DNA from: Deltaproteobacteria bacterium
GTDB taxonomy: Bacteria; Myxococcota; Myxococcia; Myxococcales; 40CM-4-68-19
Assembly (NCBI GenBank): GCA_005879535.1
Contig: VBKI01000047.1
Coordinates: 160,101 to 224,100, forward strand
Direction: 5' to 3'
DNA length: 64,000 nucleotides
The notes under the pieces are model-generated. The model was not told the origin of the DNA, did not search any database, and saw only the letters and a list, made by a program, of their open reading frames with translations. Below are positions 8,599 through 22,396 of the stretch, one piece after another. Positions within the stretch are counted from its first letter, which is position 1. Each line of letters opens with the position of its first letter. Made by a program: the position numbers and the translations under genes.

Positions 8599-10203
8599 TT
8601 GCGCAACTTCGCCGCCCTCTACGACGCCCTCGACTCGACTACTTCGACCAACGCGAAGGTGGTGGCGATGCAGGCCTACTTTGCGCAGGCCCCCGCCGCC
8701 GACGCCGCCTGGGCGCTGTATTTTCTCACCGGCGGACGCCTGAAGCGGCTGATCGCGCCCAGGCTTCTGGCTGCCTGGGGCTGCGAGCGCGCGCGCGTCC
8801 CCGGTTGGCTGTTCGAGGAATCATTCGGCGTCGCCGGAGATCTCGCGGAAACGATCGCGTTGCTCGTCGACACCGAGCGCGGCGGCCGGACGGCGAGCCG
8901 CGAGCCGCCGGCGCTCTCGCGCCTGATCGAGGACCGGCTCCTCCCGCTCCGCGAAGCGACGGAAGATGAGAAGCGACACGCTGTGCTGGAGCTGTGGGAG
9001 GCCCTGGACCGCCGGGAGATCTTCCTTCTCGACAAGCTGCTCACCGGGGAGCTGCGGGTCGGGGTTTCCGGCACGCTCGCCATCCGCGCTCTCGCCCAGC
9101 ATGCGGGACTGCCGCCCGCCACCGTCGCCCACCGGCTGATGGGTGCCTGGCAGCCGTCCGCCGATGCATTCGCCGCGCTGATTGCGCCGGAGACGGGTTC
9201 GGTGGACGTCTCGCGGCCCTATCCATTCTTTCTCGCCTCCCAGCTCGAGGACGATCCCGAGACGCTCGGCGATCCCGCCGAATGGCTGGTGGAATGGAAG
9301 TGGGACGGCATCCGCGCCCAGATCGTCCGCCGATCGGGAGGCGTCTTCCTCTGGTCGCGAGGCGAGGAGCTGATCACCGATCGCTTCCCCGACCTCTCCG
9401 GCGTCTGGGCGACGCTGCCGGAAGGCACCGTCCTGGACGGCGAAGTGCTTGCATTCTCCGGCGGTGCACCGATGCCGTTTTCCGTCCTCCAACGCCGCAT
9501 CGGCCGGCAGAAGCTGTCGCCGAAAATCCTCGCCGAGGCTCCCGCGGCGTTCATGGCGTACGACGTGCTCGAGGTCGGTGGCTCCGACGTGCGCAGCCGG
9601 GCCCTGCGCGAGCGGCGCGAGCAGCTCGCCAGCCTCGTCCAGGGGCGCAGTGACCGTCTGTCGCTCTCCGCCGCGGTGGAAGGACGAAGCTGGGCGGAGC
9701 TGCGCGAGCTTCGCAAACAGGCGCGGGAGCGCGGCGTGGAAGGACTCATGCTCAAGCGCTGGATCTCTCCGTACCGGCACGGCCGCCCGCGGGGCGACTG
9801 GTGGAAGTGGAAGATCGAGCCGTACGCGATCGACGCGGTGCTGGTCTACGCGCAGCCCGGCCACGGCCGCCGGGCAACGCTGATGACCGACCTCACGTTC
9901 GCGCTCTGGGACGGCGGCGAGCTGGTGCCGGTGGCCAAGGCGTACTCCGGCCTTACCGACGAGGAAATCGATCGCCTCGACCGCTGGATCCGCCAGCACG
10001 CCCTCGAGCGGTTCGGACCTGTGCGCGCGGTCGAGCCGGTGCACGTGTTCGAGCTGCACTTCGAGGGAATCGCCGAGAGCACCCGCCACCGCAGCGGAGT
10101 CGCCGTCCGTTTCCCCCGCATCGCCCGCTGGCGGACCGACAAGAAGCCGGCGGACGCCGACACACTGCAGACCCTGCGAGCGATGATCCGGGCTCCAAAA
10201 TAG
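8599..10203 (+). CDS. ATP-dependent DNA ligase (exonuclease-partnered type)
   Basis: 534-residue ATP-dependent DNA ligase. Domains: N-terminal helical DNA-binding domain (about 1-200), adenylation domain with motif I EWKWDGIRAQ (adenylated Lys at about 234), motif III LDGEVLA, motif IV around EGLMLKRW and motif V WWKWK, then an OB-fold domain with DRWIRQHALERFGPVRAVEP. This matches ligases paired with the metallo-beta-lactamase exonuclease (sometimes called the cisplatin-response type), not LigD: no primase or nuclease domain is fused. I read a TTG start at 8599, with GGAGGGGG at 8581-8588 as ribosome binding site. It converges on gvpK with only 3 bases between. Confidence 0.95.
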   Translation: MRNFAALYDALDSTTSTNAKVVAMQAYFAQAPAADAAWALYFLTGGRLKRLIAPRLLAAWGCERARVPGWLFEESFGVAGDLAETIALLVDTERGGRTASREPPALSRLIEDRLLPLREATEDEKRHAVLELWEALDRREIFLLDKLLTGELRVGVSGTLAIRALAQHAGLPPATVAHRLMGAWQPSADAFAALIAPETGSVDVSRPYPFFLASQLEDDPETLGDPAEWLVEWKWDGIRAQIVRRSGGVFLWSRGEELITDRFPDLSGVWATLPEGTVLDGEVLAFSGGAPMPFSVLQRRIGRQKLSPKILAEAPAAFMAYDVLEVGGSDVRSRALRERREQLASLVQGRSDRLSLSAAVEGRSWAELRELRKQARERGVEGLMLKRWISPYRHGRPRGDWWKWKIEPYAIDAVLVYAQPGHGRRATLMTDLTFALWDGGELVPVAKAYSGLTDEEIDRLDRWIRQHALERFGPVRAVEPVHVFELHFEGIAESTRHRSGVAVRFPRIARWRTDKKPADADTLQTLRAMIRAPK

Positions 10204-10206
10204 CCG

Positions 10207-10548
10207 TCAGATCAGCCGGCCGAGCGGGCCGAGATCGAGGTTCAGGTCCTCCGGCTTCAGCCCGAACCGGCGCGCCAGGTCGTGCACGGTCTCCTCCAGC
10301 CGCATCAGCGCCAGGCCGATGGCTTCGGTCTCTTCCGCAGTGAGGGTCCCCGCTTCCATCCTTCGGATGGCCTGCTTCTCCAGAAGCTTGCGCAAGAACT
10401 CGATCAGCGCGAGCACGAGACGGGCGACCGACTTCTGTACGTCCTTCGGGTCGGCGTTCCAGCGGGGCGCCTTTTCCGCCCTGCGCTCCACTTCCTTGCG
10501 CAGCGCTTCCAGCTCGCGCACCTGCATGGCGACGACGTCCTTCTTCAC
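10207..10548 (-). CDS. gvpK: gas vesicle protein GvpK
   Basis: Minor gas vesicle protein GvpK, needed for vesicle formation in other systems. The 113-residue product has the family core WNADPKDVQKSVARLVLALIEFLRKLLEKQAIRR followed by LTAEETEAIGLALMRLEE and the C-terminal GLKPEDLNLDLGPLG. I placed the start at the GTG at 10548, overlapping the previous stop (GTGA) like the other junctions in this operon; the frame also extends 12 codons upstream. It is the last gene of the gvp operon and converges on the DNA ligase gene. Confidence 0.93.
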   Translation of the reverse strand: MKKDVVAMQVRELEALRKEVERRAEKAPRWNADPKDVQKSVARLVLALIEFLRKLLEKQAIRRMEAGTLTAEETEAIGLALMRLEETVHDLARRFGLKPEDLNLDLGPLGRLI

Positions 10549-11171
10549 GGGAGAAGCTCCGGCGCGAACGACCACGCGGGCCAAGGCCCGGTCGCGCTGA
10601 TTCGCAGCGGCTCGATCCGGGCGGTTTCGACGGCGCGCAGGTACTGCGCGGAGCAGCCGCGGTCGATCAAGTGGTAGACGCTCGCGACCAGACGGGGCTC
10701 CGCATGCGCCTCGACCCGCTCGGCCCGGATGAGATCCCCCAGCGCCGTCCGCAGCGGCTCGAGCTCCGGCAGCGCTTTTGCCCGACGGCGCTCGTGGAGG
10801 TATCTGGTCCCCGGACCACCCGGCGCGCGAAGGGTCGGCAACGTCCCGTACACGCGCAGCGTCATCTGCTCGCGCCCGCGCACCAGCCGGAGGGCCTCCG
10901 CGAGCTCGGTCTCCCGCCCCGCGATCGCCTCGACGAGAGATGCCTCGTCGAGGGCCGTTGCGCCGAACCGCGCGGGCAGACAGGCCTGCGCCGTCTCGGC
11001 GATCCGGCGCACCGCGGCTTCATGCGCGCGCAGCGCGTCGGCGGACAGGTCCGGAGGAGCATCGCCGCACACCAACTCGAGGTCGTCCCTTGCGATCACG
11101 CGCAGCGGCTCTCCGCGCGCTCCCGACAGGCCGCGAGCTGCTCCCAGCGCGATCGCGTATACCCCGATCAC
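10545..11171 (-). CDS. gas vesicle protein GvpF/GvpL family (third copy)
   Basis: 208-residue GvpF/L family protein, shorter than the other two copies in the operon. It shows the N-terminal strand MIGVYAIALG (family YVYAIV-type start), the helical middle and the C-terminal strand ISATGPWPAWSFAPE, the GPWPxYxF signature with Ala-Trp in place of the usual Pro-Tyr. GvpF/L proteins are accessory, contacting GvpA during assembly. GTG start at 11171 overlaps the stop of the GvpA-like gene (GTGA). Which copy corresponds to F or L cannot be told. Confidence 0.88.
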   Translation of the reverse strand: MIGVYAIALGAARGLSGARGEPLRVIARDDLELVCGDAPPDLSADALRAHEAAVRRIAETAQACLPARFGATALDEASLVEAIAGRETELAEALRLVRGREQMTLRVYGTLPTLRAPGGPGTRYLHERRRAKALPELEPLRTALGDLIRAERVEAHAEPRLVASVYHLIDRGCSAQYLRAVETARIEPLRISATGPWPAWSFAPELLP

Positions 11172-11377
11172 TTTCCCGCCCGTGCGGGCAGCAGCCGATC
11201 CGCTGCGCAGAGCAGGGCGTTCAGTCGAAGGTAGACCAGGTCCACTCCGGCGACGCCCAGGATCACCTCTCCCCGCAGCATCACGCCTTTGTTCAGCACG
11301 TGATCGATGATCTCCAAGAGCGATGCGTCCGCGCCGTCGACGATGTCCTCCGCCGCGGAGCGCTCCCGCTTCTTCAT
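11168..11377 (-). CDS. GvpA-superfamily minor protein (GvpM/S-type)
   Basis: 69-residue member of the gas vesicle GvpA/J/M/S superfamily. The core ASLLEIIDHVLNKGVML plus GEVILGVAGVDLVYLRLNALLCAAD matches minor paralogs GvpM/GvpS (the VDLVYL segment), rather than the structural GvpA. It has no long C-terminal tail. It is sandwiched between two gvpF/L genes with 4-base overlaps on both sides, so all three are likely made in fixed ratio. Minor GvpA paralogs are thought to act at nucleation or at the conical caps. Confidence 0.88.
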   Translation of the reverse strand: MKKRERSAAEDIVDGADASLLEIIDHVLNKGVMLRGEVILGVAGVDLVYLRLNALLCAADRLLPARAGK

Positions 11378-12159
11378 TTCGGCTCCGGGTCGGTCACGAA
11401 GGTATATGCGGGCCAAGGCCCGGTGAGCGTGAGCTGGTAGTCGCGCCCGGCGAGCTTCCTGGTCTCGGTGCGGACCGCGGCCTGGAAAGCTTTCGTCTTC
11501 GTCCGCGGGACCAGGAAGGCGGCGTCGAGCAGCACCCGCTTGCCGATCTCGCCCGGGGGCGGCGGCCGGCGGCGAGCGTCCTCCGCCTTCGCCGCGACGC
11601 GTTCGAAGACTTCGTCGGCGCGGTTCCGGGCATGCTCGATCACCTCGCGCGCAGCATCGTGCTCCTTCTTCCTCCGCAGCAGGAACGCGGTCCCCGGGGC
11701 GTCGGAGGCGACCGTCTGCGCGTCTTCGCGCGCGCGGCGCAGGGCGGCCACCTCGTCGAGCAGCACCCGCAGCCCCCACTCCTCGCGCCCGCCGATTCGC
11801 TCGATCAGCCGATCGATGCGCTTGCGCTGACCTTTGACGTGCTCCAGCGCCCGCTCGTCGGTGCGAAAGAGCGTGAAGAGCTTCATCGGGACCACGGCGG
11901 TTCCGTTCTTCGCCAGGTGCTCGACGATGGCCTCGTGGGGAACGGCTACGGACGACACCCAGGCGAGGTCCTTCAGGCCGCGCTCGATCGCCTTCTCGCC
12001 GTATTGCCCGAGCGGAGCGTCCGCCGCAACCAGCCAGAGGCCGTCTCCGGCGTCGATCGCACGCGGGCGCCCGGCGCCCGGCAGCCCTGCCGGAGCATCG
12101 CGCAAGGATGGCTCCCTGGGCGAGTGCACGAGGCAGTAGAGATAGGTGGCGGTGCTCAT
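11374..12159 (-). CDS. gas vesicle protein GvpF/GvpL family (second copy)
   Basis: 261-residue GvpF/L accessory protein. Begins MSTATYLYCLVHS, has the internal HEAIVEHLAKNGTAVVPMKLFTLF segment (GvpF/L hallmark: His-Glu then a VxPMxFGTxF-like strand, here LFTLF) and ends with the signature LTLTGPWPAYTFV. A Lys/Arg-rich helix (about 165-200) lies between the two lobes. ATG start at 12159 overlaps the ArsA-like gene stop (ATGA). Predicted role: chaperone-like binding of GvpA at the growing vesicle. Confidence 0.93.
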   Translation of the reverse strand: MSTATYLYCLVHSPREPSLRDAPAGLPGAGRPRAIDAGDGLWLVAADAPLGQYGEKAIERGLKDLAWVSSVAVPHEAIVEHLAKNGTAVVPMKLFTLFRTDERALEHVKGQRKRIDRLIERIGGREEWGLRVLLDEVAALRRAREDAQTVASDAPGTAFLLRRKKEHDAAREVIEHARNRADEVFERVAAKAEDARRRPPPPGEIGKRVLLDAAFLVPRTKTKAFQAAVRTETRKLAGRDYQLTLTGPWPAYTFVTDPEPK

Positions 12160-14057
12160 TCCATTCTCTTCCAGGTCCGTGCGAAGCGCGCCAGCGCAGC
12201 GGCGCCCTGCGGCGCGGGTGCGATCCGCGGGGCCGCCAGCATAGCGCAGCCCCGGCAGATCCGACGAAGCCTCTCGATTTCCCGCTCTTCGTCGGCCGCT
12301 GCCCGGTTGCAGCGGGAGCAGCCCTGTGGGGTCCGCGCATTCACCAGCAAGGCGGGCGCGGCAATGCGCAGCTTCTTGAGATTTGTCAGAAGGCGGGCTG
12401 TCTCCAGGCGGGGAAGTGCCGCGCCCCGGGTCACCGGAACGAACCGGCAGCGGGCCGGATCCTGCAAGAGCTCCTGCAGCTCGCGAAGCTCGCGCGCGGT
12501 GTCGGTCAGGTCGCGTGCCAGATCGCCGAGGCCGGTGACACGGCGGTACTTGAGCTGGATCTGGAGCAGAACCTGGACCCATTCGCGCGCCTTCGCCGAG
12601 AGCTCGAGCAGCCGCAACGCATGTCCGGTGGGGGCTGTGTCCACCACCACCAGGCGGTAGCCCTGCAGCGCCTCGATGACGGCGAGAAGCGCGAGCACTT
12701 CGTCGAGGCCCGGCGGGCTCAGATCGATCAGGTCCTCCATCACCGCCCGGTCATACGGCGCGTCGAAGGATGAGCCGCCGCGAAGCGTCGCAAACAGCTC
12801 CTCGACGGCGGCCCGATACTGTCCCCGCCGCCGTTCGAACATGCGCCCGGCGTCGAGCTCGCGCGCCCGGAGACCCGGCTCGACTTCGAGCTCGGCGTCG
12901 CCCACCGGCATCTGCAACACGTCGGCGAGGGAATGTGCGGGATCGGTGGACAGCAGCAGCACGGGACCGCCGCGCCGGGCGATGGAAATGGCAGCCGCGG
13001 AGGCCACCGTGGTCTTCCCCACCCCGCCCTTGCCGCCGAAGAACAGGAGCCGGATCCCGGCCGGCGCCAGCTCGTCGAGCGCTGCGAGGAACGGCTCTTG
13101 CGCTTCGGGAGCCTTCCTGCCGTCACTCTTCAGGGGATCCGACCGGATCGCATCGCGCCGCAGGGGCTTTTCCAGCGCCCGGCCCAGGCGAGCGAGATCG
13201 TGCAGCCCGCGCGGCTCGTGATCCTCTTCCGGGACGCCGTACAAAGGGCCTCCGAGGCCGCGCGCCGCTTCGACCATTCGGGCCTCCTCTGCGCGGCGCG
13301 CGGCGCAGAGCCGGCAGCGCCGGTCGGGCCGCGGCGTGAGTCGGTTGACGATGACCCGCGCGACCCGCATGCCGGCCTCGTGAAGAGCGGAAACGCCATC
13401 CCGCGACTCGGCCAGCGAGAGCGGTTCCGCGACGGTGATCCAATGGACCTCCGCGTCGTCCGACTCGAGCAGGGCCCGAAGCGACGCCGCTTCCTCCCGC
13501 AGCTCGTCGATCACGGTGTCTTCAGCGTCGCGCCGGACGCTGCCGCGCAGCGATCGCGCCATCGCGCGGTGCTTGCCCTGCAGATCGTCGAGCACCTCGG
13601 CGAGCTTCGCCAAGGTCGCGGGCATGGCCAGCAGCCGGAGGGTGTGGCCCGTCGGCGCCGTATCCACCACGACTTCCTCGAATCCACGCGCCAGCCGGCG
13701 CAGCTCCACCAACCCCACCAGCTCGTCGACGCCGGGCAGCGAAAGGCGGAACAGGGAATCGATGTCTTCGTCGTCGAGATACGTGCCGCGCGACGCGATC
13801 ACCCGGAACGACCGCGCGCGGGCGCGGAGCCAGCGCGACAGCGCCCGGTCCGCGTCCAGCTGGACCGCGAACAGATTGCCGCGCATCCGGCGCGGCGACG
13901 CGGAGAGTCGCGCGTCCAGCGCGTCGGCGAGGGAATGGGCAGGATCGGTCGACACCACGAGGGTGCGCGCCCTTCGCCGCGACAGCGCGATCGCGGCGGC
14001 GGAGGCGCAGGTCGTCTTCCCCACGCCGCCCTTGCCCGCGTAGAAGCGGAACATCAC
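12156..14057 (-). CDS. double-domain ArsA/Get3-like ATPase in the gas vesicle operon
   Basis: 633-residue protein made of two ArsA/Get3-type ATPase halves. Each has a deviant P-loop (FYAGKGGVGKTT near residue 5; FFGGKGGVGKTT near 340), the STDPAHSLAD segment and VVDTAPTGHTLRLL / VVDTAPTGHALRLL. Each half ends with a Cys pair (CRLC near 253, CSRC near 585), reminiscent of zinc-binding CxxC in Get3-like proteins. ArsA energises arsenite export and Get3 delivers tail-anchored proteins, but no arsB or arsenic gene is near. Overlap with gvpG upstream (GTGA) and gvpF/L downstream (ATGA) argues for a role in handling hydrophobic Gvp proteins, which is inference. GvpN, the usual ATPase, is absent. 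Confidence 0.9.
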   Translation of the reverse strand: MMFRFYAGKGGVGKTTCASAAAIALSRRRARTLVVSTDPAHSLADALDARLSASPRRMRGNLFAVQLDADRALSRWLRARARSFRVIASRGTYLDDEDIDSLFRLSLPGVDELVGLVELRRLARGFEEVVVDTAPTGHTLRLLAMPATLAKLAEVLDDLQGKHRAMARSLRGSVRRDAEDTVIDELREEAASLRALLESDDAEVHWITVAEPLSLAESRDGVSALHEAGMRVARVIVNRLTPRPDRRCRLCAARRAEEARMVEAARGLGGPLYGVPEEDHEPRGLHDLARLGRALEKPLRRDAIRSDPLKSDGRKAPEAQEPFLAALDELAPAGIRLLFFGGKGGVGKTTVASAAAISIARRGGPVLLLSTDPAHSLADVLQMPVGDAELEVEPGLRARELDAGRMFERRRGQYRAAVEELFATLRGGSSFDAPYDRAVMEDLIDLSPPGLDEVLALLAVIEALQGYRLVVVDTAPTGHALRLLELSAKAREWVQVLLQIQLKYRRVTGLGDLARDLTDTARELRELQELLQDPARCRFVPVTRGAALPRLETARLLTNLKKLRIAAPALLVNARTPQGCSRCNRAAADEEREIERLRRICRGCAMLAAPRIAPAPQGAAALARFARTWKRME

Positions 14058-14353
14058 TCGTGCTCGAAGTCCGCCGTCGCCTCGACCCCGGTGACCTTGA
14101 AGTCGCCGGGCTTCATGGGCTGGCCCGCCTCGCCGAGCTGGCGCGCGCGGATCTCGCGCAGCCGCGCCAGCACGTCGGCTTCGAAGCGGGCGAACTCCTC
14201 CTGCGTCAGCTCGCCCAACTCGAGCCGCATCTGGGCAGCGAGTAGCTCTTCGCGCAGGCGGGAATCGTCGTTCAGCTCGGCATCGACCGCCGCGGCGATC
14301 TTGCCGAGCACGAAACGGATTCCCCCGACCAGCATGCGGTCGACGATCAGCAA
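14054..14353 (-). CDS. gvpG: gas vesicle protein GvpG
   Basis: 99-residue GvpG-type protein: an N-terminal hydrophobic stretch (LLIVDRMLVGGIRFVLGKI) followed by a charged amphipathic helix, LREELLAAQMRLELGELTQEEFARFEADVLARL, with the family LxxGxITxEEFxxxE pattern. GvpG binds GvpF/L and GvpA in assembly complexes. I use the TTG at 14353 because AAGGAGAAG lies 8 bases upstream across the previous stop; the ATG at 14335 would cut off the conserved hydrophobic start. A short Lys/Glu tail follows. Confidence 0.85.
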   Translation of the reverse strand: MLIVDRMLVGGIRFVLGKIAAAVDAELNDDSRLREELLAAQMRLELGELTQEEFARFEADVLARLREIRARQLGEAGQPMKPGDFKVTGVEATADFEHE

Positions 14354-14358
14354 ACCGG

Positions 14359-15267
14359 CTACTTCTCCTTCGCCCGCTCGAGCTTCAGGCGGATGTTGAC
14401 GAAGTTGTACGGCGGCCACGGTCCCGTGTACTTGAAGGTCAGCTTGTCGAAGCGGGCGCCGATCTCCTTCACCCGCTGGTCGAACGCCTGCTCCTTGTCG
14501 CGCGAGACCAGGAAGGCGGCGTTCATGATCATCTTGTCGCCGATGGGCTTGTTGGCGCGGGAGGCGACGGCGACGTCGCGCAGGGCCTCGAAGATCTCCG
14601 CCACGTACTTCTCCGAGTGCGCCTGCAGCGCGGCATCCACCAGCCGCCCGTACTGCATGCGCGCGAAGTAGGTGGAGCCCTTCTGAGCCGAGATCTCCTG
14701 CTTCAGGCGCCGCACGTCCTCGTCCTGGTTCTCGATCTCGCGCACCATCACGTCGCGGTCCCAGAGGATCTTGAGGCCGAACTCGAGCTTGTCCTGCATC
14801 TTGTCGAGCACGTCGTGGAAGGCATCGTAGGCGGAGCGGAGCAGCTCGACGATGTCGTCGCGCGTCTTGAACACGGTGCCGAAGCTCATCGGGATCACTG
14901 TGTGCTTGCGCATCACCGTCTCGTTGACCCGCTCGTGGGCGAGCACGTTCTCCCGGGTGGGGTCGTGCACCTCGATGGGCGTGTCGCTCACCACCGCGGC
15001 GATGTCGCGGTAGTTCACGGTGTGCACTTCGGCAGGGTCGGCGCCGATCCCCAGGGGGCCGAAGCGAAGCGGTTCGGTCGCCTGGATGATGCAGTAGACA
15101 TACTTGCCGCGGCCGTCGGACTGCTGCCGCAGGTTGCCGTTGCCGTTCTGCGGCTCCGCGCGCGGCGGAGTGCTCTTCGCTCGCGCCGCGGCGGGCGCCT
15201 TTCCTGCCTTCTTCGCGGCAGGCAGCGCCTTCTTTGCGGCCCTCTTCGTCTTCTCGACTGACGGCAT
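14359..15267 (-). CDS. gas vesicle protein GvpF/GvpL family (first copy) with basic N-terminal extension
   Basis: 302-residue GvpF/L protein. Residues 1-50 are an added low-complexity Lys/Ala/Pro extension (MPSVEKTKRAAKKALPAAKK...), absent from the other two copies. The conserved part starts KYVYCIIQA, contains HTVIPMSFGTVFK (the family VxPMxFGTxF motif) and ends FKYTGPWPPYNFV, the best match to consensus of the three copies. The basic extension may contact the acidic vesicle surface or nucleic acid, which is inference. It follows the response regulator gene after 3 bases and precedes gvpG by 5. Confidence 0.94.
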   Translation of the reverse strand: MPSVEKTKRAAKKALPAAKKAGKAPAAARAKSTPPRAEPQNGNGNLRQQSDGRGKYVYCIIQATEPLRFGPLGIGADPAEVHTVNYRDIAAVVSDTPIEVHDPTRENVLAHERVNETVMRKHTVIPMSFGTVFKTRDDIVELLRSAYDAFHDVLDKMQDKLEFGLKILWDRDVMVREIENQDEDVRRLKQEISAQKGSTYFARMQYGRLVDAALQAHSEKYVAEIFEALRDVAVASRANKPIGDKMIMNAAFLVSRDKEQAFDQRVKEIGARFDKLTFKYTGPWPPYNFVNIRLKLERAKEK

Positions 15268-15270
15268 GAC

Positions 15271-15699
15271 TTACCTGGCTCCCTTCGCCTTTCCGGGTGC
15301 TGACTTCCCACCCTCCAGCATCCTGCGGATCTCGGCGACCAACTGGTCCGGCAGGCACGGCTTGGCGAGGAACGAGTCGCAACCCGCTTCCTTCGCGCCC
15401 TTGGAATGCCCGGCAAGCGCGTGTCCCGTCAGCGCCACGATCGGGATCCGGCGGGTTCGCTCGTCGGCCTTCAGCTGCCGGGTCGCTTCCCAGCCGTCCA
15501 TCACCGGCAGGGAAAGGTCCATGATGATGATGTCCGGCAGCCGCTCGTGCGCGGCCTCGACGGCCTCGATTCCGTTCTTCGCCTCGATGACTTCATATCC
15601 CGAGAACGCGAGGTACTCGGAGTACATCTCGCGGTTGTCGGCAAAGTCGTCGACCACCAGCACGATCGACTTGCGCCGGGATGCGCCAGCCGCGGTCAT
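15271..15699 (-). CDS. single-domain response regulator within the gvp operon
   Basis: 142-residue receiver-only response regulator. Acidic pocket VDDFAD at 16-21, phosphoacceptor Asp at 61 in IIIMDLSLPVMDGWE, Thr in VALTGHA and the Lys of FLAKPC are all present. There is no DNA-binding or enzymatic output domain, only a short basic tail. Its ATG overlaps the stop of the histidine kinase (ATGA), so the two are a cognate pair. It sits between gvpA and the first gvpF/L, so its output is probably protein-protein, perhaps onto gas vesicle assembly or an unlinked partner. Confidence 0.92.
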   Translation of the reverse strand: MTAAGASRRKSIVLVVDDFADNREMYSEYLAFSGYEVIEAKNGIEAVEAAHERLPDIIIMDLSLPVMDGWEATRQLKADERTRRIPIVALTGHALAGHSKGAKEAGCDSFLAKPCLPDQLVAEIRRMLEGGKSAPGKAKGAR

Positions 15700-17840
15700 C
15701 GCTTCCCCCTGCGCGGGATCACGAGCGTGAAGCTGGAGCCCGCGCCGACGTTCGAGACGAGCTCGATGCGTCCATCCAGCATCTTCGCCAGGCGGCGGCA
15801 GATGGCAAGCCCGAGGCCCGCGCCCCCGTATTCGCGGGTCACCGAATTGTCCGCCTGCCGGAAGTCCTCGAATACCCTGTCGTGATCTTGCGGCGCAATG
15901 CCGATGCCGGTGTCCTCCACCGCGATGCGCACCTCGCGCCGCTCCTCGTCGCCGCGCACGATCACCTTGACGTGCCCGAGCGGAGTGAACTTGATGGCGT
16001 TGGTGAGCAGGTTGAGGACGATCTGCTTCACCTTCTGCCGATCGGACCAGGCCGGCTGGAGCCCGGGCTGCAAGTCCGTGAGCACCTGCAGCCGCGCCTT
16101 CTGGATCAGAGGCTCGACCTCGGCGAGAAGCTCTCCGACCAGGGCGGCCATCTCGACCTCCTCGAGGTGGAGCGGCATCTTTCCTGCCTCGATGCGGCTG
16201 ATGTCGAGGATGTCGTTGATGATGGAGAGCAGGTGGCGGGCGTTGGAGTCCACCCGCAACATCTTGTTCTTCTGCGGGGGAGACATGTCGCCCGAGACAC
16301 CCTGAAGCAGCATGCTGGTGTAACCGAGGATGGCATTGAGGGGCGTGCGGAACTCGTGCGACATGTTGGCGAGGAACTGGCTCTTGAGCTGGGAGGCCTG
16401 CTCCAGCTCGAAATGCTGCCGCTGCAACAGCTCGTTGCGCCGCACCAGCTCGCCGGTGGCCTCGCGGACCTTCTCTTCCAGCTGCTCGCTGGCGGCCTTG
16501 ACCTGCTCGTACAGGCGGGCCTTCTCCAGCGCCTCGGTGCGATCGTGGAGGATGGTGACCACGGCCGTGACCTCCCCGTGCTCGCTGAGCACCTTGCCCG
16601 CCACCGCTTCCACCGGCAGCGCCTGCAACGTGGAGGGATCGATGAGGGAGATCTCGCCGCGCCAACGCAGCCCCTTGCCGGTGAGGAACAGGTTGGAGAC
16701 GAAGGAGGAGAAGTGGGCGTCGTTGCTGCGCACGGCGCGCTCCGCCTCCGCGGTCTCGTCCGATTCCGGGGCCGTGAACAGGCGCTCGGCGGGCGAGTTC
16801 ATCAGCAGGATCTTTCCCGACGGATCGGTGACGAGGATGGGGTCGGCGACCGAATCGATGATCAGGTCCAGCCGGTCGCGCTCGGCGCGCACGTCCGCTT
16901 CCGCCACCTTCAGACGCCGGTAGTTCTCCTCGATCTGCTCGGTGGCGGCGCGCAGGTCCGTGACGTTCCGCAGGATGGAGACCACGCAGGTCCCCTCGCG
17001 CGGGTGCTGCACCACCGACGAAAGCAGCTCGAAGAGGAGGTCGGATCCCTCGGAGGGTGAAACCAGCAGCAGCTCGCGCCGGGTCGCGCCCGACTCGATC
17101 GCCTGCTGCGAGAGCGCCGCAGAGAAGAGCATGTTGTTCAGCGCCACCGCGCGATGCCGGCCCTCGCTCTCTCCCTCCTTGGTGGAGAAGAGCGCGTCCG
17201 CCCGCGCGTTCGAGATGATCATCCGGCCTTCCGGCTCGGTGAGCAGGATGGGATCCGGCGAGGCGTTGATGATGTTCAGCAAGAGCTCGCGCTCGCGCTG
17301 CAGCCGGTGCTCGCTTTCGAGGATGGCCGCGGTGGCGCGCAGGCGAGCGATCTTCTGTCCGAGCAGCTCGGCCGCCCACTTCGCTTCCGGCTCGCAGCGA
17401 GCGGGACTCACGAGCAAAAGGCCCTGCCGCGCTTCCCGTTTCTCGGAGAGCGGAAGCGGGATGGCGACGAAGTCGCCCCGCCATGGATCAGCCCCGTTGC
17501 GCCGGCCTTCCTTGCCGATCATCACCGCCTCGCGGCCCGCGAGCGCGAATACGAGGGGATGCTCGGGGTTCTCCATCGCGAGATGCAGGGTCTCGATCTG
17601 TCCCGCGGGGACGCCGCTCGCCGCGACGTGCTGCACGGTCCCCGACCCGGCCTCGATCAGCGCGCAGACGGCTTTGCGGGCGCCGATGCGCTCCGCCAGC
17701 CAGTCGACCGTCGCGCGCGCGCATTCCACCGGCTCCTCGCTGAAGAGCAGAAGCTCCGCCAACGCAAGCCTCGCCGCCGACGCCGCCTCGCGCGGCGTCT
17801 CGGTGCCGGAGCGTGACTGCGTCGGGACCGCTGCCCCCAT
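15696..17840 (-). CDS. soluble GAF-PAS-PAS sensor histidine kinase within the gvp operon
   Basis: 714-residue cytosolic histidine kinase with no transmembrane segment. Order: GAF-like domain (about 25-165), PAS (about 185-300, PDPILLTEPEGRMIISN), PAS (about 322-440, ADPILVTDPSGKILLMN), coiled coil (440-485), HisKA with phospho-accepting His 495 (MSHEFRTPLNAI), and HATPase_c with the N box LLTNAIKFTP and G boxes DTGIGIA and GGAGLGLAI. It starts 3 bases after gvpA and overlaps the receiver gene. A soluble GAF/PAS sensor suggests an intracellular signal such as redox, gas or a small ligand. No haem or flavin residues can be asserted. Confidence 0.93.
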   Translation of the reverse strand: MGAAVPTQSRSGTETPREAASAARLALAELLLFSEEPVECARATVDWLAERIGARKAVCALIEAGSGTVQHVAASGVPAGQIETLHLAMENPEHPLVFALAGREAVMIGKEGRRNGADPWRGDFVAIPLPLSEKREARQGLLLVSPARCEPEAKWAAELLGQKIARLRATAAILESEHRLQRERELLLNIINASPDPILLTEPEGRMIISNARADALFSTKEGESEGRHRAVALNNMLFSAALSQQAIESGATRRELLLVSPSEGSDLLFELLSSVVQHPREGTCVVSILRNVTDLRAATEQIEENYRRLKVAEADVRAERDRLDLIIDSVADPILVTDPSGKILLMNSPAERLFTAPESDETAEAERAVRSNDAHFSSFVSNLFLTGKGLRWRGEISLIDPSTLQALPVEAVAGKVLSEHGEVTAVVTILHDRTEALEKARLYEQVKAASEQLEEKVREATGELVRRNELLQRQHFELEQASQLKSQFLANMSHEFRTPLNAILGYTSMLLQGVSGDMSPPQKNKMLRVDSNARHLLSIINDILDISRIEAGKMPLHLEEVEMAALVGELLAEVEPLIQKARLQVLTDLQPGLQPAWSDRQKVKQIVLNLLTNAIKFTPLGHVKVIVRGDEERREVRIAVEDTGIGIAPQDHDRVFEDFRQADNSVTREYGGAGLGLAICRRLAKMLDGRIELVSNVGAGSSFTLVIPRRGKR

Positions 17841-17843
17841 CGA

Positions 17844-18164
17844 TTACTCGGTGCGCCGCCGCCGCCGCTCGGTGACGCCGGACGCGGAGGCAAGCTGTGC
17901 CTTGAGCGATGCGTTCTCGGCGAGCAGCGCTTCGTGCGTCTTGCTGTCGATCCCCTTCGGGGCGATGGCAGGCGCCTGGCCTACCGCCTCGGAGTACTTG
18001 AGGTAGGTGTCGATCGACGCGACGACCACGCGCGCTTCCACGGTGATCAGGTCGATGCCGACGAGCGAGACGCGAACCCAGGCGTCGATGACGATGCCCT
18101 TGTCCAGTACGCGATCGAGGACGTCGATGAGACTGGTACCGCCCGAAGCTCTTTCAACCGGCAT
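17844..18164 (-). CDS. gvpA: gas vesicle structural protein GvpA
   Basis: 106-residue GvpA, the small hydrophobic protein forming the ribbed gas vesicle wall. The conserved core runs [52 protein letters not shown]. Typical GvpA ends soon after this; here about 40 extra residues follow, ending in a very basic RRRRRTE. A tail beyond the core would project from the wall. The upstream gene is gvpJ (18-base gap); downstream the histidine kinase follows at 3 bases. GAAGGAGCGAGAC precedes the ATG as ribosome binding site. Confidence 0.95.
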
Positions 18165-18182: not shown

Positions 18183-18524
18183 CTACGTCCTGTTGCGCGC
18201 GGCGCGCTTCGCCGCTGGGGTCGAGCGCGTCAGGGATTCGACCTTGCGCTCGAGCAGCCGCACCTGCTCGCGAAGCTGCTCTCGCTCCAGCTCGACTTGC
18301 TTGCGCCCGGGAGCGAGGTGCTGGTCGTAACGCCACCAGTCGAGGCCGATCTGCTGCGCCTTGTCGATGGAACAGATGATCAGCCGCACGCGGATCGTCA
18401 GCAATTCGACTTCCGCGAGCGACACCTTGATGTCGCCGGCGATCACCAGCCCTTTGTCCAGGACGCGGTCGAGGACGTCGACGAGGCCGCTGCTGCTTCG
18501 TACAGGCTGAAGTTCGGATCCCAT
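18183..18524 (-). CDS. gvpJ: gas vesicle minor protein GvpJ (GvpA-like)
   Basis: 113-residue GvpA-superfamily protein with GvpJ features: [56 protein letters not shown], the last segment (IGxDWW) being the usual GvpJ mark. A charged coiled-coil tail (VELEREQLREQVRLLERKVESL) and a basic end follow. I chose the ATG at 18524; upstream in-frame sequence lacks coding character. It is first in the gvp operon. The 132 bases between it and the divergent DUF2071 gene must hold the promoters, but no clear -35/-10 or sigma-54 pair could be assigned. Confidence 0.92.
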   Translation of the reverse strand: MGSELQPVRSSSGLVDVLDRVLDKGLVIAGDIKVSLAEVELLTIRVRLIICSIDKAQQIGLDWWRYDQHLAPGRKQVELEREQLREQVRLLERKVESLTRSTPAAKRAARNRT

Positions 18525-19885: not shown

Positions 19886-20521
19886 TCAGTGCTGGAGGAG
19901 CGGCGCAATATGTCGGAGGTCGCGGATGAGGAGGTCCATTTCGCGATGGCGAGTCTCTTCATCCGGCGCTCGCAGAATCGACGAGGGATGAACGGTGGCC
20001 ATGATGGCGCGCACCAGCTCGTGTTGCAGGATCTCGCCGCGCATCTGCGTGACCTTGAACGACTTCCCCAGCAGCGCCTGCGCCGCCGTCGCGCCGAGAC
20101 AGACCAGCACGTCCGGTTTCAACACCGCCAGCTCCGCCTCGAGCCATGGGCGGCAGGCGGCGATCTCGCGGGCGTTGGGCTTCTCGTGCAGCCGCCGCTT
20201 CCCTCGCGGCGTCCACTTGAAGTGCTTCACGACGTTCGTGACGTACACCAGCTTGCGATCGATTCCAGCTTCCTCGAGGGCGCGATCGAGGAGCTTGCCT
20301 GCCGGGCCGACGAACGGGCGCCCGATCTTGTCCTCGCTGTCCCCGGGCTGCTCGCCGAGGAAGATTGCGCGCGCCTCGGAAAGACCCTCACCGAACACGG
20401 TCTGGGTGCCGGTCCGATAGAGCGGACAGGCGGTACAGCCGGCGGCGGCCGCCCGCAGCTTGTCGAGGGTCGGGCGTTCTGGCACGAGCGGGGCGGCGGT
20501 CTCGAGGACGGCGTGCGCCAT
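19886..20521 (-). CDS. udgX: UdgX, covalent uracil-DNA glycosylase
   Basis: 211-residue family-4-like uracil-DNA glycosylase of the UdgX group. Motif A is GEQPGDSEDKIGRPFVGPAG (from residue 56). The loop insertion KRRLH (108-112) is the UdgX hallmark; its His (H112 here) attacks the sugar and leaves the enzyme covalently joined to DNA after uracil removal in the characterised mycobacterial protein. Motif B is VHPSSILR. Cys 29, 32 and two later Cys fit the [4Fe-4S] cluster. It is divergent from the DUF72 gene and close to a second base-repair gene. Confidence 0.93.
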   Translation of the reverse strand: MAHAVLETAAPLVPERPTLDKLRAAAAGCTACPLYRTGTQTVFGEGLSEARAIFLGEQPGDSEDKIGRPFVGPAGKLLDRALEEAGIDRKLVYVTNVVKHFKWTPRGKRRLHEKPNAREIAACRPWLEAELAVLKPDVLVCLGATAAQALLGKSFKVTQMRGEILQHELVRAIMATVHPSSILRAPDEETRHREMDLLIRDLRHIAPLLQH

Positions 20522-20547
20522 GCCGGAAAGCTACGCACCTTCGGGAC

Positions 20548-21321
20548 GTGATCCATCTCGGCACCAGCGGCTTCGTCTACGACGACTGGCGCAACCTCTT
20601 CTATCCGAAGGGACTACCGACCAGGCAATGGCTCGACCACTATTCGCGGGTCTTCTCCACGGTCGAGCTGAACGCGACCTTCTACCGGCTGCCGACCGCG
20701 AGCACCGTGGACGGCTGGCGCCAAGGAACGCCGCGCGGATTCCGCTTCGCGGCCAAGGGAAGCCGGTACCTCACGCACATGAAGCGCCTGACGGATCCGG
20801 GCCCCGGCATCAAGAGGTATTTCGATCTCATCCTCGGGCTCGGAAAGAAGCTCTCCGTCGTCCTCTGGCAGCTGCCGCCGCAGATGAACAAGGCGGACCC
20901 CGATCGCCTGGAGCAATTCCTCGAGAAGCTGCCGCAGGGCAGCCTCCGCCACGCCGTGGAGTTTCGCAGTCCGGCCTGGTACGTCGGCGACGTCTGCGAG
21001 GTGCTCGAGGCGCACCGGGCCGCGTTCTGCGAGCACGATCTCGTTCGGCTGCGCCCGCCGCGGATCACCGGCGGGTTCCGCTACCTGAGATTTCACGGCG
21101 CCACCGGCAAGTATCGCGGCCGATACGGCAAGCGGGCCCTGCGGCCGTTTGCCCGCGACCTGCTGGCGTGGCGCGGCGACGCCTACGTCTACTTCAACAA
21201 CGACCATTTCGGTCACGCCATCCGCGACGCGCTGGACCTCAGCGATCTGCTCGGCGACCCGCTACACTGCGGCGATGCTGTTCGAGACCCGCGCAGGAGC
21301 CGTCCGGCTGCGGTGGAATGA
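20548..21321 (+). CDS. DUF72 (YecE-like) family protein
   Basis: 257-residue DUF72 protein with TIM-barrel character. The start IHLGTSGFVYDDWRNLFYPKGLPTRQWLDHYSRVF and the internal FSTVELNATFYRLP and YLRFHG are the family signatures; a FNNDHFGHAIRDAL segment near the end matches the YFNND motif. The biochemical role is unknown, though the family often neighbours DNA repair genes, as here. GTG start at 20548. Its last 47 bases overlap the start of the alkyltransferase/glycosylase gene. Confidence 0.88.
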   Translation: MIHLGTSGFVYDDWRNLFYPKGLPTRQWLDHYSRVFSTVELNATFYRLPTASTVDGWRQGTPRGFRFAAKGSRYLTHMKRLTDPGPGIKRYFDLILGLGKKLSVVLWQLPPQMNKADPDRLEQFLEKLPQGSLRHAVEFRSPAWYVGDVCEVLEAHRAAFCEHDLVRLRPPRITGGFRYLRFHGATGKYRGRYGKRALRPFARDLLAWRGDAYVYFNNDHFGHAIRDALDLSDLLGDPLHCGDAVRDPRRSRPAAVE

Positions 21322-22396
21322 CCGCGGCCTCACCGCCATCGAGATGCCCGAGTTGCCGCCGCGCGAGCTCCGCGCCCAGCTCGGCCGCCAGAACGGGAAG
21401 GACGCGCCGGAATTCGTGCAGGACGCTGTGCGCCTGCTGAAGCGGCATCTCGCGGGCGAGTCGCAGGACCTCGCCGCCCTGCCGCTCGATCTTTCCGTGC
21501 TCGCTCCCTTCCAGCGCTCCGTCTACGAAAAGGTCCGCGCGCTGCCGCCCGGGCGCACGGCAAGCTACGGCGAGATCGCCGCCATGCTGGGAAAACCGGG
21601 CGCATCCCGCGCCGTCGGACAGGCCCTGGGGCGCAACCCGTTCCTCGTTGCCGTTCCTTGCCACCGGGTCCTCGCCGCCGGCGGCGCGCCCGGAGGTTTC
21701 TCCGCCGAGGGAGGCCTGTTCGCCAAGCAGCGTCTGCTCGCGCTCGAAGGCGTGACGCTGGCCGTCGATCACGGATTGCCGTTCGACCCGCTCGCAGCGG
21801 TGGAGCACCTGCGCGCCCGCGATCGGCGCCTGGCGAAGTTCGTCGAAAAGATCGGCCCCTTCCGGCTGCGACCTGCCGAGCTCCAGAGCCCCTTCGAGGC
21901 CCTCCTCGAATCGATCGTGTACCAGCAGCTCACGGGCAAGGCGGCGTCGACCATCCTCGCCCGTGTGCTCGCGCTCTTCCACCCGCGGCGCTACCCGCGC
22001 GCGCAGGACGTCGCGGAGATCTCCGAAGAGAAGCTGCGCAGCGCTGGCCTCTCGCGATCGAAGGCGGCGGCCCTGAAGGACCTCGCAGCGAAGACGCTCG
22101 ACGGCACGGTGCCCGGCACGGCGCGGGCGCTGGAGAAGCTTTCGGACGCGGAGATCGTGGAGCGGCTCACGGCGGTGCGGGGGATCGGGCCGTGGACGGT
22201 GGAAATGCTGCTCATCTTCCGGCTGGCACGGCCGGACGTGCTCCCGGCGACGGACTACGGAGTGCGGAAGGGTTTTGCCCGCGTGCGCGGGGCGAGCGAG
22301 CTTCCCGCTCCCAAGGAGCTCCTCGCCTATGGAGAACGCTGGCGCCCTTACCGCAGCGTCGCGAGCTGGTACCTCTGGCGCGTGCTCGACCTCTGA
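21275..22396 (+). CDS. fusion of O6-alkylguanine-DNA alkyltransferase and AlkA-type 3-methyladenine DNA glycosylase
   Basis: 373-residue two-enzyme protein for alkylation repair. Residues 1-165 are an Ogt/MGMT suicide methyltransferase with GRTASYGEIAAMLGKPGASRAVGQALGRNP and the acceptor Cys 129 in VAVPCHRVL. Residues 175-373 are an HhH-GPD glycosylase: QSPFEALLESIVYQQLTG, hairpin LTAVRGIGPWTVEML and the catalytic Asp 327 in LPATDYGVRKG, ending SVASWYLWRVLDL as in AlkA. The Ada AraC-like regulatory domain is absent, so this is repair only. A single frame without stop supports a true fusion. It begins inside the end of the DUF72 gene. Confidence 0.93.
   Translation: MLFETRAGAVRLRWNDRGLTAIEMPELPPRELRAQLGRQNGKDAPEFVQDAVRLLKRHLAGESQDLAALPLDLSVLAPFQRSVYEKVRALPPGRTASYGEIAAMLGKPGASRAVGQALGRNPFLVAVPCHRVLAAGGAPGGFSAEGGLFAKQRLLALEGVTLAVDHGLPFDPLAAVEHLRARDRRLAKFVEKIGPFRLRPAELQSPFEALLESIVYQQLTGKAASTILARVLALFHPRRYPRAQDVAEISEEKLRSAGLSRSKAAALKDLAAKTLDGTVPGTARALEKLSDAEIVERLTAVRGIGPWTVEMLLIFRLARPDVLPATDYGVRKGFARVRGASELPAPKELLAYGERWRPYRSVASWYLWRVLDL

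Follow-up and report, generated by a model that had tools for sequence, protein, structure and literature searches.

A tandem Get3/ArsA-superfamily ATPase linked to gas-vesicle genes: a candidate chaperone for GvpA-type proteins

A 64,000-nucleotide stretch of contig VBKI01000047.1 from a Deltaproteobacteria bacterium, a soil relative of the myxobacteria (hereafter, the window) carries a single gas-vesicle operon, all on the minus strand, in which a tandem ATPase of the ArsA/Get3 fold is encoded between gvpG and a gvpF gene. Comparison of related loci supports the view that this ATPase belongs with the gas-vesicle genes. We propose, with about even confidence, that it works with GvpF and GvpG as an accessory, ATP-driven chaperone for proteins of the GvpA type.

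The association of the ATPase with gvp genes was examined by scanning 84,980 genomes with two conserved peptides of the family; the best 80 matches were kept and 79 loci were analysed. Since only these best loci were retained, the figures describe a survey and not a census. Another gvp gene stands beside the ATPase in 76 of the best 79 loci, which were chosen by sequence alone, and the three loci devoid of a gvp neighbour sit on contigs 3.6-6.3 kb long. Judged by record labels, the loci cover more than ten phyla; the closest named relatives among them come from metagenome assemblies and carry the label Deltaproteobacteria or Myxococcales. The next gene upstream of the ATPase is gvpG in 63 of the 73 loci where this could be judged, which bears out the co-occurrence anticipated in an initial annotation of the window. 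The ATPase and gvpG overlap or lie at most 20 bases apart in 43 of 60 cases, and the same is true of the ATPase and the gvp gene that follows in 48 of 68; both counts assume the nearest possible start, a choice biased towards short gaps. In the window, the gvpG stop TGA (14056-14054) donates its final A as the first base of the ATPase ATG (TGATG), and the ATPase stop overlaps the ATG of the second gvpF/L at 12159 (ATGA). Since the gvpG TGA shares its A with that ATG, the ATPase likely starts at the ATG at 14054 rather than at the GTG at 14057. The coupling of a double P-loop ArsA-type ATPase to both gvpG and gvpF/L, as initially annotated, therefore stands, with a one-base overlap towards gvpG and a start moved from 14057 to 14054.

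The ATPase also varies in step with the gas-vesicle proteins. Its pairwise distances correlate with those of GvpG (r 0.85, n=64), GvpK (0.80, n=63), GvpA (0.70, n=53) and GvpF (0.70, n=57), and none of 999 shuffles reached such values, though the shuffles ignore shared ancestry; two gvp-gvp pairs correlate about equally (0.71 and 0.65). The linkage of the ATPase to gvp genes is beyond chance.

The protein matches Pfam ArsA_ATPase (PF02374) in two stretches with 345 bits. Each half carries one intact P-loop (residues 7-14 and 341-348) followed, about 240 residues later, by a CxxC pair (residues 247-250 and 579-582). The GKGGVGKT P-loop and the DTAPTGH switch are both found; since they are common to Get3 and ArsA, they do not discriminate between the two. 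Conservation was assessed on a 77-row alignment. Proteins of 560-760 residues with two P-loop motifs counted as usable; of these 77, the alignment includes 72, the five omitted ones being outliers or near or second copies, together with the window protein, three relatives and one Nostoc protein. The P-loop lysines of both halves are kept in all 77 rows, which were preselected for two P-loop motifs, and all four CxxC cysteines are present in 61, with none in 10 and some in 6. CxxC is absent from the four ArsA proteins examined. In an AlphaFold2 model based on 76 sequences (predicted local distance difference test 93.0, predicted template modelling score 0.93), the N- and C-halves are predicted to close into a single pseudo-dimer that has two ATP sites and a CxxC in each half, and the C-half matches archaeal Get3 over 275 residues (Z 27.3).

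When the N-half alone was searched against PDB sequences, archaeal Get3 (1.7e-34) and human Get3 (4e-34) scored ahead of E. coli ArsA (1.3e-26), and the N-half CxxC aligned with the CxxC of Get3. Whether the whole chain or either half was searched, the top PDB sequence match was Chlamydomonas ArsA1 (5zme). An unrooted half-domain tree was built from 53 halves and single-domain proteins, omitting from the halves four locus proteins cut by contig ends as well as L069. In this tree, 18 gvp N-halves form one group (100/98) and 18 gvp C-halves another (99/97), and the two together constitute a joint group (97/94). The N- and C-halves of ArsA are separate from it (100/100), as are Get3 and haloarchaeal single-domain proteins (93/84). 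The phylogeny against ArsA and Get3 suggested in the initial annotation thus gave a divided answer: the halves lie apart from ArsA, but they do not fall within Get3 either. On these trees the gvp family stands apart from both Get3 and ArsA as a third group, and the ArsA and gvp tandems appear as separate duplications, unless the root falls inside the ArsA group. ArsA halves again grouped together in a quick 82-row tree including long-branch members. The gvp ATPase of Nostoc (L164) is in the same family as that of the window, on a long branch, and a gvp-unlinked tandem from Myxococcaceae-type genomes nests within the gvp family with both CxxC kept.

Some further members of the superfamily were encountered. 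Three Myxococcaceae-type loci (L050, L053 and L055) encode a tandem gvp-family ATPase with both CxxC and show no gvp gene in the surrounding 13-14 kb. The genome has two further ArsA-like genes (contig C87, L054), which encode distant single-domain proteins on long branches, and a third P-loop open reading frame there has a far longer branch; all three stand outside the final half-domain tree. The gvp clusters L092, L122, L152, L156 and L162 have the tandem ATPase, in full or in part, in two differing copies. In an order-level relative (L073 6433-8128), the cluster ATPase is split over two frames, owing to a broken gene or an assembly error.

In the proposed mechanism, a dedicated tandem Get3/ArsA-superfamily ATPase would form a closed pseudo-dimer comparable to the zinc-held Get3 homodimer. 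Hydrophobic GvpA/GvpJ-type subunits would be taken over from GvpF and GvpG, shielded by the ATPase and, upon ATP hydrolysis, released at the growing vesicle edge. GvpF is described as the first partner of GvpA, later superseded by GvpG, and chaperone roles are proposed for both (PMC11445434); GvpA, GvpJ and GvpM made without chaperones tend toward inclusion bodies (PMC9501494). A Get3-type clamp is consistent with the position of the ATPase gene between gvpG and gvpF, and delivery of GvpA by the ATPase is plausible. The analysis shows the gene linkage, the co-variation with gvp proteins, the intact P-loops of both halves, the mostly kept Get3-type cysteines, the lack of arsenite-binding cysteines and a predicted closed fold; the identity of the client, the order of hand-off, zinc binding and ATP-driven release are inferred.

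Several observations weigh against this chaperone proposal. The C-half alone finds E. coli ArsA (2e-36) ahead of archaeal Get3 (1.2e-31) and human Get3 (5.5e-23) in the PDB, and the best structural match of the whole model is closed ArsA (525 residues, Z 33.6). At the sequence level, the closeness of the ATPase to Get3 is mixed, and since the C-half favours ArsA, no greater overall nearness to Get3 than to ArsA is claimed. Of the 77 aligned proteins, 16, chiefly from Gemmatimonadota and cyanobacteria, lack CxxC wholly or in part, and certain Get3 proteins without it nevertheless bind clients (PMC11170914), so this motif is not diagnostic of function. The hydrophobicity of the helices following DTAPTGH is at most suggestive: gvp C-halves appear more hydrophobic than Get3, and the comparison was given no weight because the motif selected one ArsA C-half only and the other picks were partial. 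A tandem relative with the same CxxC sites but no gvp linkage is found in Myxococcaceae-type genomes. Moreover, irregular vesicles still formed in E. coli from a cyanobacterial gvp set that lacked an ArsA-type gene (PMC7204071); the ATPase would therefore improve assembly rather than permit it.

Clusters with the gene order of the window but no ATPase point the same way. Two of them, from Myxococcota (L070 and L071), lack both the ATPase and GvpN and have about 130 and 320 bases between their gvpG and gvpF matches; L177 and L188 also lack both, and the genome of L188 has GvpN in a second cluster. In type II clusters without the ATPase (L197, L200, L207 and L214), gvpJ directly follows gvpG. 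Since otherwise similar clusters do without it, the ATPase is an accessory factor, which appears from these gene contents to be common yet dispensable.

According to the initial annotation, the ATPase stands in place of GvpN. The operon is indeed without gvpN: none is present in the cluster, and the best GvpN score genome-wide is 34.9 bits against a family cut-off of 266.8 (two weak AAA hits only); the ATPase itself matches no GvpN model (TIGR02640). Across the survey, GvpN is present in the cluster or genome at 39 of the best 79 ATPase loci. In a 73-row tree, from which the near copies L064, L068 and L084 were omitted, all 31 rows of the clade containing the window (support 98) are GvpN-free, and the remaining 42 rows comprise 37 GvpN-positive and 5 negative ones. 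Since the assemblies are mostly metagenomic, single GvpN absences are weak evidence, but the clade-wide pattern is not. Among 195 Myxococcota genomes, gvpF was detected in 75, of which 5 have GvpN over the cut-off, 10 have the ATPase at a gvp locus and none has both; gvp loci were read in 21 of these 75 genomes (20 fetched and the window), the others being judged by match coordinates.

Counts centred on gvpK gave no sign of mutual exclusion. For the phylum of a Desulfarculales genome, 32 loci comprise 9 with both genes, 7 with the ATPase only, 9 with GvpN only and 7 with neither (Fisher p 1.0); for Acidobacteriota, the corresponding counts in 23 loci are 2, 9, 5 and 7 (p 0.37). The centre genomes of both samples are ATPase genomes themselves. 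Many loci reach contig ends, and when whole clusters only are considered, the counts in the same order become 4, 1, 3 and 2 for the Desulfarculales phylum and 1, 5, 4 and 5 for Acidobacteriota. Four ATPases (L225-L228) lie about 3.5 kb beyond the gvp cluster but are members of the family too, at 51-77% to L130/L136; recoding them as absent yields 7, 5, 11 and 9 (p 1.0). Among the 7 acidobacterial loci with neither gene, L182 is cut off, the genome of L176 has the ATPase elsewhere (L159), that of L188 has its GvpN at L184, and gvpG is missing from the stretch read at L179 and L180. The pattern of an ATPase in place of GvpN thus holds within the window clade (31/31) and in Myxococcota, where no genome has both, but fails as a general rule, and the inverse occurrence with gvpN expected initially was not seen in the gvpK-centred counts of the two phyla. 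In the Myxococcaceae-type loci L051 and L082, gvpA, gvpF, gvpK and gvpJ are present, and GvpN and the ATPase are absent from the stretch read.

These distributions bear on a rival explanation, in which the ATPase took over the energy-dependent widening or lengthening of vesicles from GvpN in the GvpN-free lineage. Such a takeover would suit the GvpN-free window clade and the absence of any Myxococcota genome with both among the 15 that have a cluster ATPase or GvpN, and model vesicles remain small without GvpN (PMC11445434, PMC9501494). It is nevertheless improbable in view of the 37 of 42 other tree rows that are GvpN-positive, the gvp-centred counts, which show no inverse association, and the GvpN-free clusters of the same order that also lack the ATPase. 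GvpN is an AAA+ protein, unrelated to the ArsA/Get3 family. A general replacement of GvpN was rejected, the gvp-centred counts not being in line with it. Another possibility, which we likewise consider unlikely, is that the ATPase energises or regulates some other gas-vesicle step, such as recycling of a GvpG/GvpF complex or ParA/MinD-like positioning, without any hydrophobic client. Membership of the same broad P-loop class, with weaker CbiA/ParA-type matches, and the tight coupling to gvpG and gvpF would be compatible with this role, but the ArsA/Get3 profile scores 345 bits versus 67.7 for CbiA and 39.4 for ParA, and the Get3-type CxxC is mostly kept. Positioning in the manner of ParA/MinD was ruled down, with weaker profile matches only.

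That an arsenite-pump ATPase (ArsA) came to lie in the operon by chance has hardly any probability. In its favour are the fold, which is that of the ArsA family and finds its best match over the whole chain in closed ArsA, the C-half, nearer ArsA in the PDB search, and one ArsB-type transporter in the genome (53 bits, above the Pfam cut-off of 22.2). This single ArsB match is located on a different contig from the gvp cluster and is unlinked to it; the sole ArsA-family match near it is a P-loop protein about 5 kb away (contig C80; 27 bits over about 35 residues), which we take to resemble Mrp/ApbC. No Acr3 was found in a search of the same genome. The ATPase reaches 186.6 bits with the TIGR04291 equivalog, against a cut-off of 650, and none of 73 family rows, among them that of the window, has a cysteine within two columns of Cys113, Cys172 or Cys422; in this alignment, all four ArsA yardsticks have the second and third cysteines and three of four the first. 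The gvp linkage also spans phyla. Since the ArsA cysteines are missing from 73/73 rows, Acr3 is lacking and the halves branch apart from those of ArsA, a pump function appears very unlikely. As initially annotated, no arsenic gene is nearby: Pfam detected no arsenic-resistance gene among ten cluster and eight flanking proteins (6.2-22.4 kb), ArsD and ArsR not being searched genome-wide. Placement among arsenite pumps with an arsB or acr3 partner had been named as the outcome that would speak against a Gvp delivery factor; what we found is a separate branch, no Acr3 and one unlinked ArsB match. Cysteine loss in gas-vesicle ArsA clusters was already seen by Castillo and Saier in 2010 (section 3.12; PMC2963123).

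Several known systems are close to the window ATPase. With Get3/TRC40 of yeast, human and archaea, it shares the fold, the P-loop signature, DTAPTGH and an aligned CxxC. Unlike Get3, which is a homodimer of single-domain subunits, the window ATPase has its two domains fused in tandem, with a C-half that gives the better score against ArsA, and we know of no Get1/2/4/5 partner or tail-anchored client for the gvp ATPase. Pump ATPases of the ArsA type resemble it in their tandem domains and closed fold (Z 33.6), but the window ATPase lacks the Cys triad and a linked pump partner and appears to derive from a separate duplication. GvpN is also an ATPase of gas-vesicle clusters, yet of the AAA+ family and often found alongside this ATPase. 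Chlamydomonas ArsA1 is a fused two-domain protein, ArsA by name, which carries tail-anchored proteins; it is described as lacking CxxC, with chloroplast-localised proteins as cargo (PMC11170914).

The gas-vesicle operon of the window reads, in order, GvpJ-like, gvpA, PAS histidine kinase, response regulator, gvpF, gvpG, ATPase, gvpF, short GvpA-family gene, gvpF and gvpK. A Pfam scan of the cluster recovers GvpG, three GvpL_GvpF, three GvpA-family proteins and GvpK, plus the ATPase. Its features are as follows:

18183..18524, minus strand: GvpA-family protein, GvpJ-like (PF00741, 61.3 bits)
17844..18164, minus strand: gvpA, main shell protein (NF006874, 112 bits, cut-off 100)
15696..17840, minus strand: PAS-type histidine kinase within the gvp operon (HisKA, HATPase_c and PAS domains; position kept in related clusters)
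15271..15699, minus strand: response regulator receiver protein (PF00072, 85.6 bits)
14359..15267, minus strand: gvpF/L, first copy (PF06386, 265 bits)
14054..14353, minus strand: gvpG, probable TTG start (PF05120, 54.6 bits)
12156..14054, minus strand: tandem ArsA/Get3-fold ATPase, 632 amino acids (open reading frame, Pfam, motifs, AlphaFold2 model)
11374..12159, minus strand: gvpF/L, second copy (PF06386, 157 bits)
11168..11377, minus strand: short GvpA-family protein, GvpJ/M/S-like (PF00741, 50.2 bits)
10545..11171, minus strand: gvpF/L, third copy (PF06386, 91.6 bits)
10207..10527, minus strand: gvpK (PF05121, 109 bits)

The histidine kinase and response regulator (15271-17840) lie between gvpA and gvpF, and the pair occupies the same place in clusters of Myxococcota, Rokubacteria and Acidobacteriota, which suggests a built-in sensory control of vesicle formation. 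A separate module of Myxococcaceae-type genomes (L052 6053-9802 and L061 3228-6574) consists of a GvpA-like fragment, a histidine kinase, a response regulator and gvpF; the fragment has the first helix motif only (e.g. SLVDVLDR) and no other shell gene is present in the stretch, so this module may represent a gas-vesicle part reused in signalling. On both sides, the operon of the window is flanked by DNA-repair genes (8599-10203 and 19886-22396), namely an ATP-dependent DNA ligase, a uracil-DNA glycosylase family gene and a fused methylguanine methyltransferase/HhH-GPD glycosylase.

Two-domain ArsA homologues tied to gvp clusters were reported in four phyla by Castillo and Saier in 2010, whose survey likewise listed an acidobacterial cluster without gvpN (PMC2963123). 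Their clusters 4 and 6 comprise two-domain proteins of about 640 amino acids, encoded next to gvp genes in operons free of arsenic genes and with the ArsA cysteines unconserved; the function proposed there is the energising of a biogenic step only (PMC2963123). The window ATPase has the same features, being encoded in a gvp operon with two ArsA domains, 632 amino acids and both P-loops intact. The Get3-type CxxC, the separate duplication and the GvpN-free clade do not figure in the available portions of that survey (PMC2963123). As far as literature searches reach, the Get3-type motif in both halves and the separate tandem duplication are new, as are the survey, with its more than ten phyla, the clade without GvpN and the clusters that naturally lack the ATPase. 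In the open-licence literature, no paper was found that joins gas vesicles with Get3, or bacterial Get3 with ArsA and tail-anchored proteins, and the 2010 survey was the sole match joining gas vesicles, ArsA and gvpN.

How the shell proteins are kept soluble and inserted into gas vesicles is an open question (PMC11445434). If the chaperone proposal is true, a widespread dedicated Get3-type ATPase would offer a testable energy-driven delivery step, together with natural clusters that have or lack it. A more far-reaching version, which we put forward tentatively and regard as rather doubtful, is that a fused Get3-type chaperone, by feeding the shell protein, builds a whole GvpN-free class of vesicles found across Myxococcota, Rokubacteria, Acidobacteriota, Gemmatimonadota and Planctomycetota; a membrane-protein targeting machine would then have been reused for a protein-only organelle, with no membrane involved. 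In addition, 'ArsA' labels beside gvp genes need not signal arsenic resistance: one genome paper listed as arsenate-related an ArsA gene numbered beside gvp genes (PMC3610870; adjacency read from locus tags). If the chaperone function is real, the ATPase would also be a part to try in vesicles built in engineered cells.

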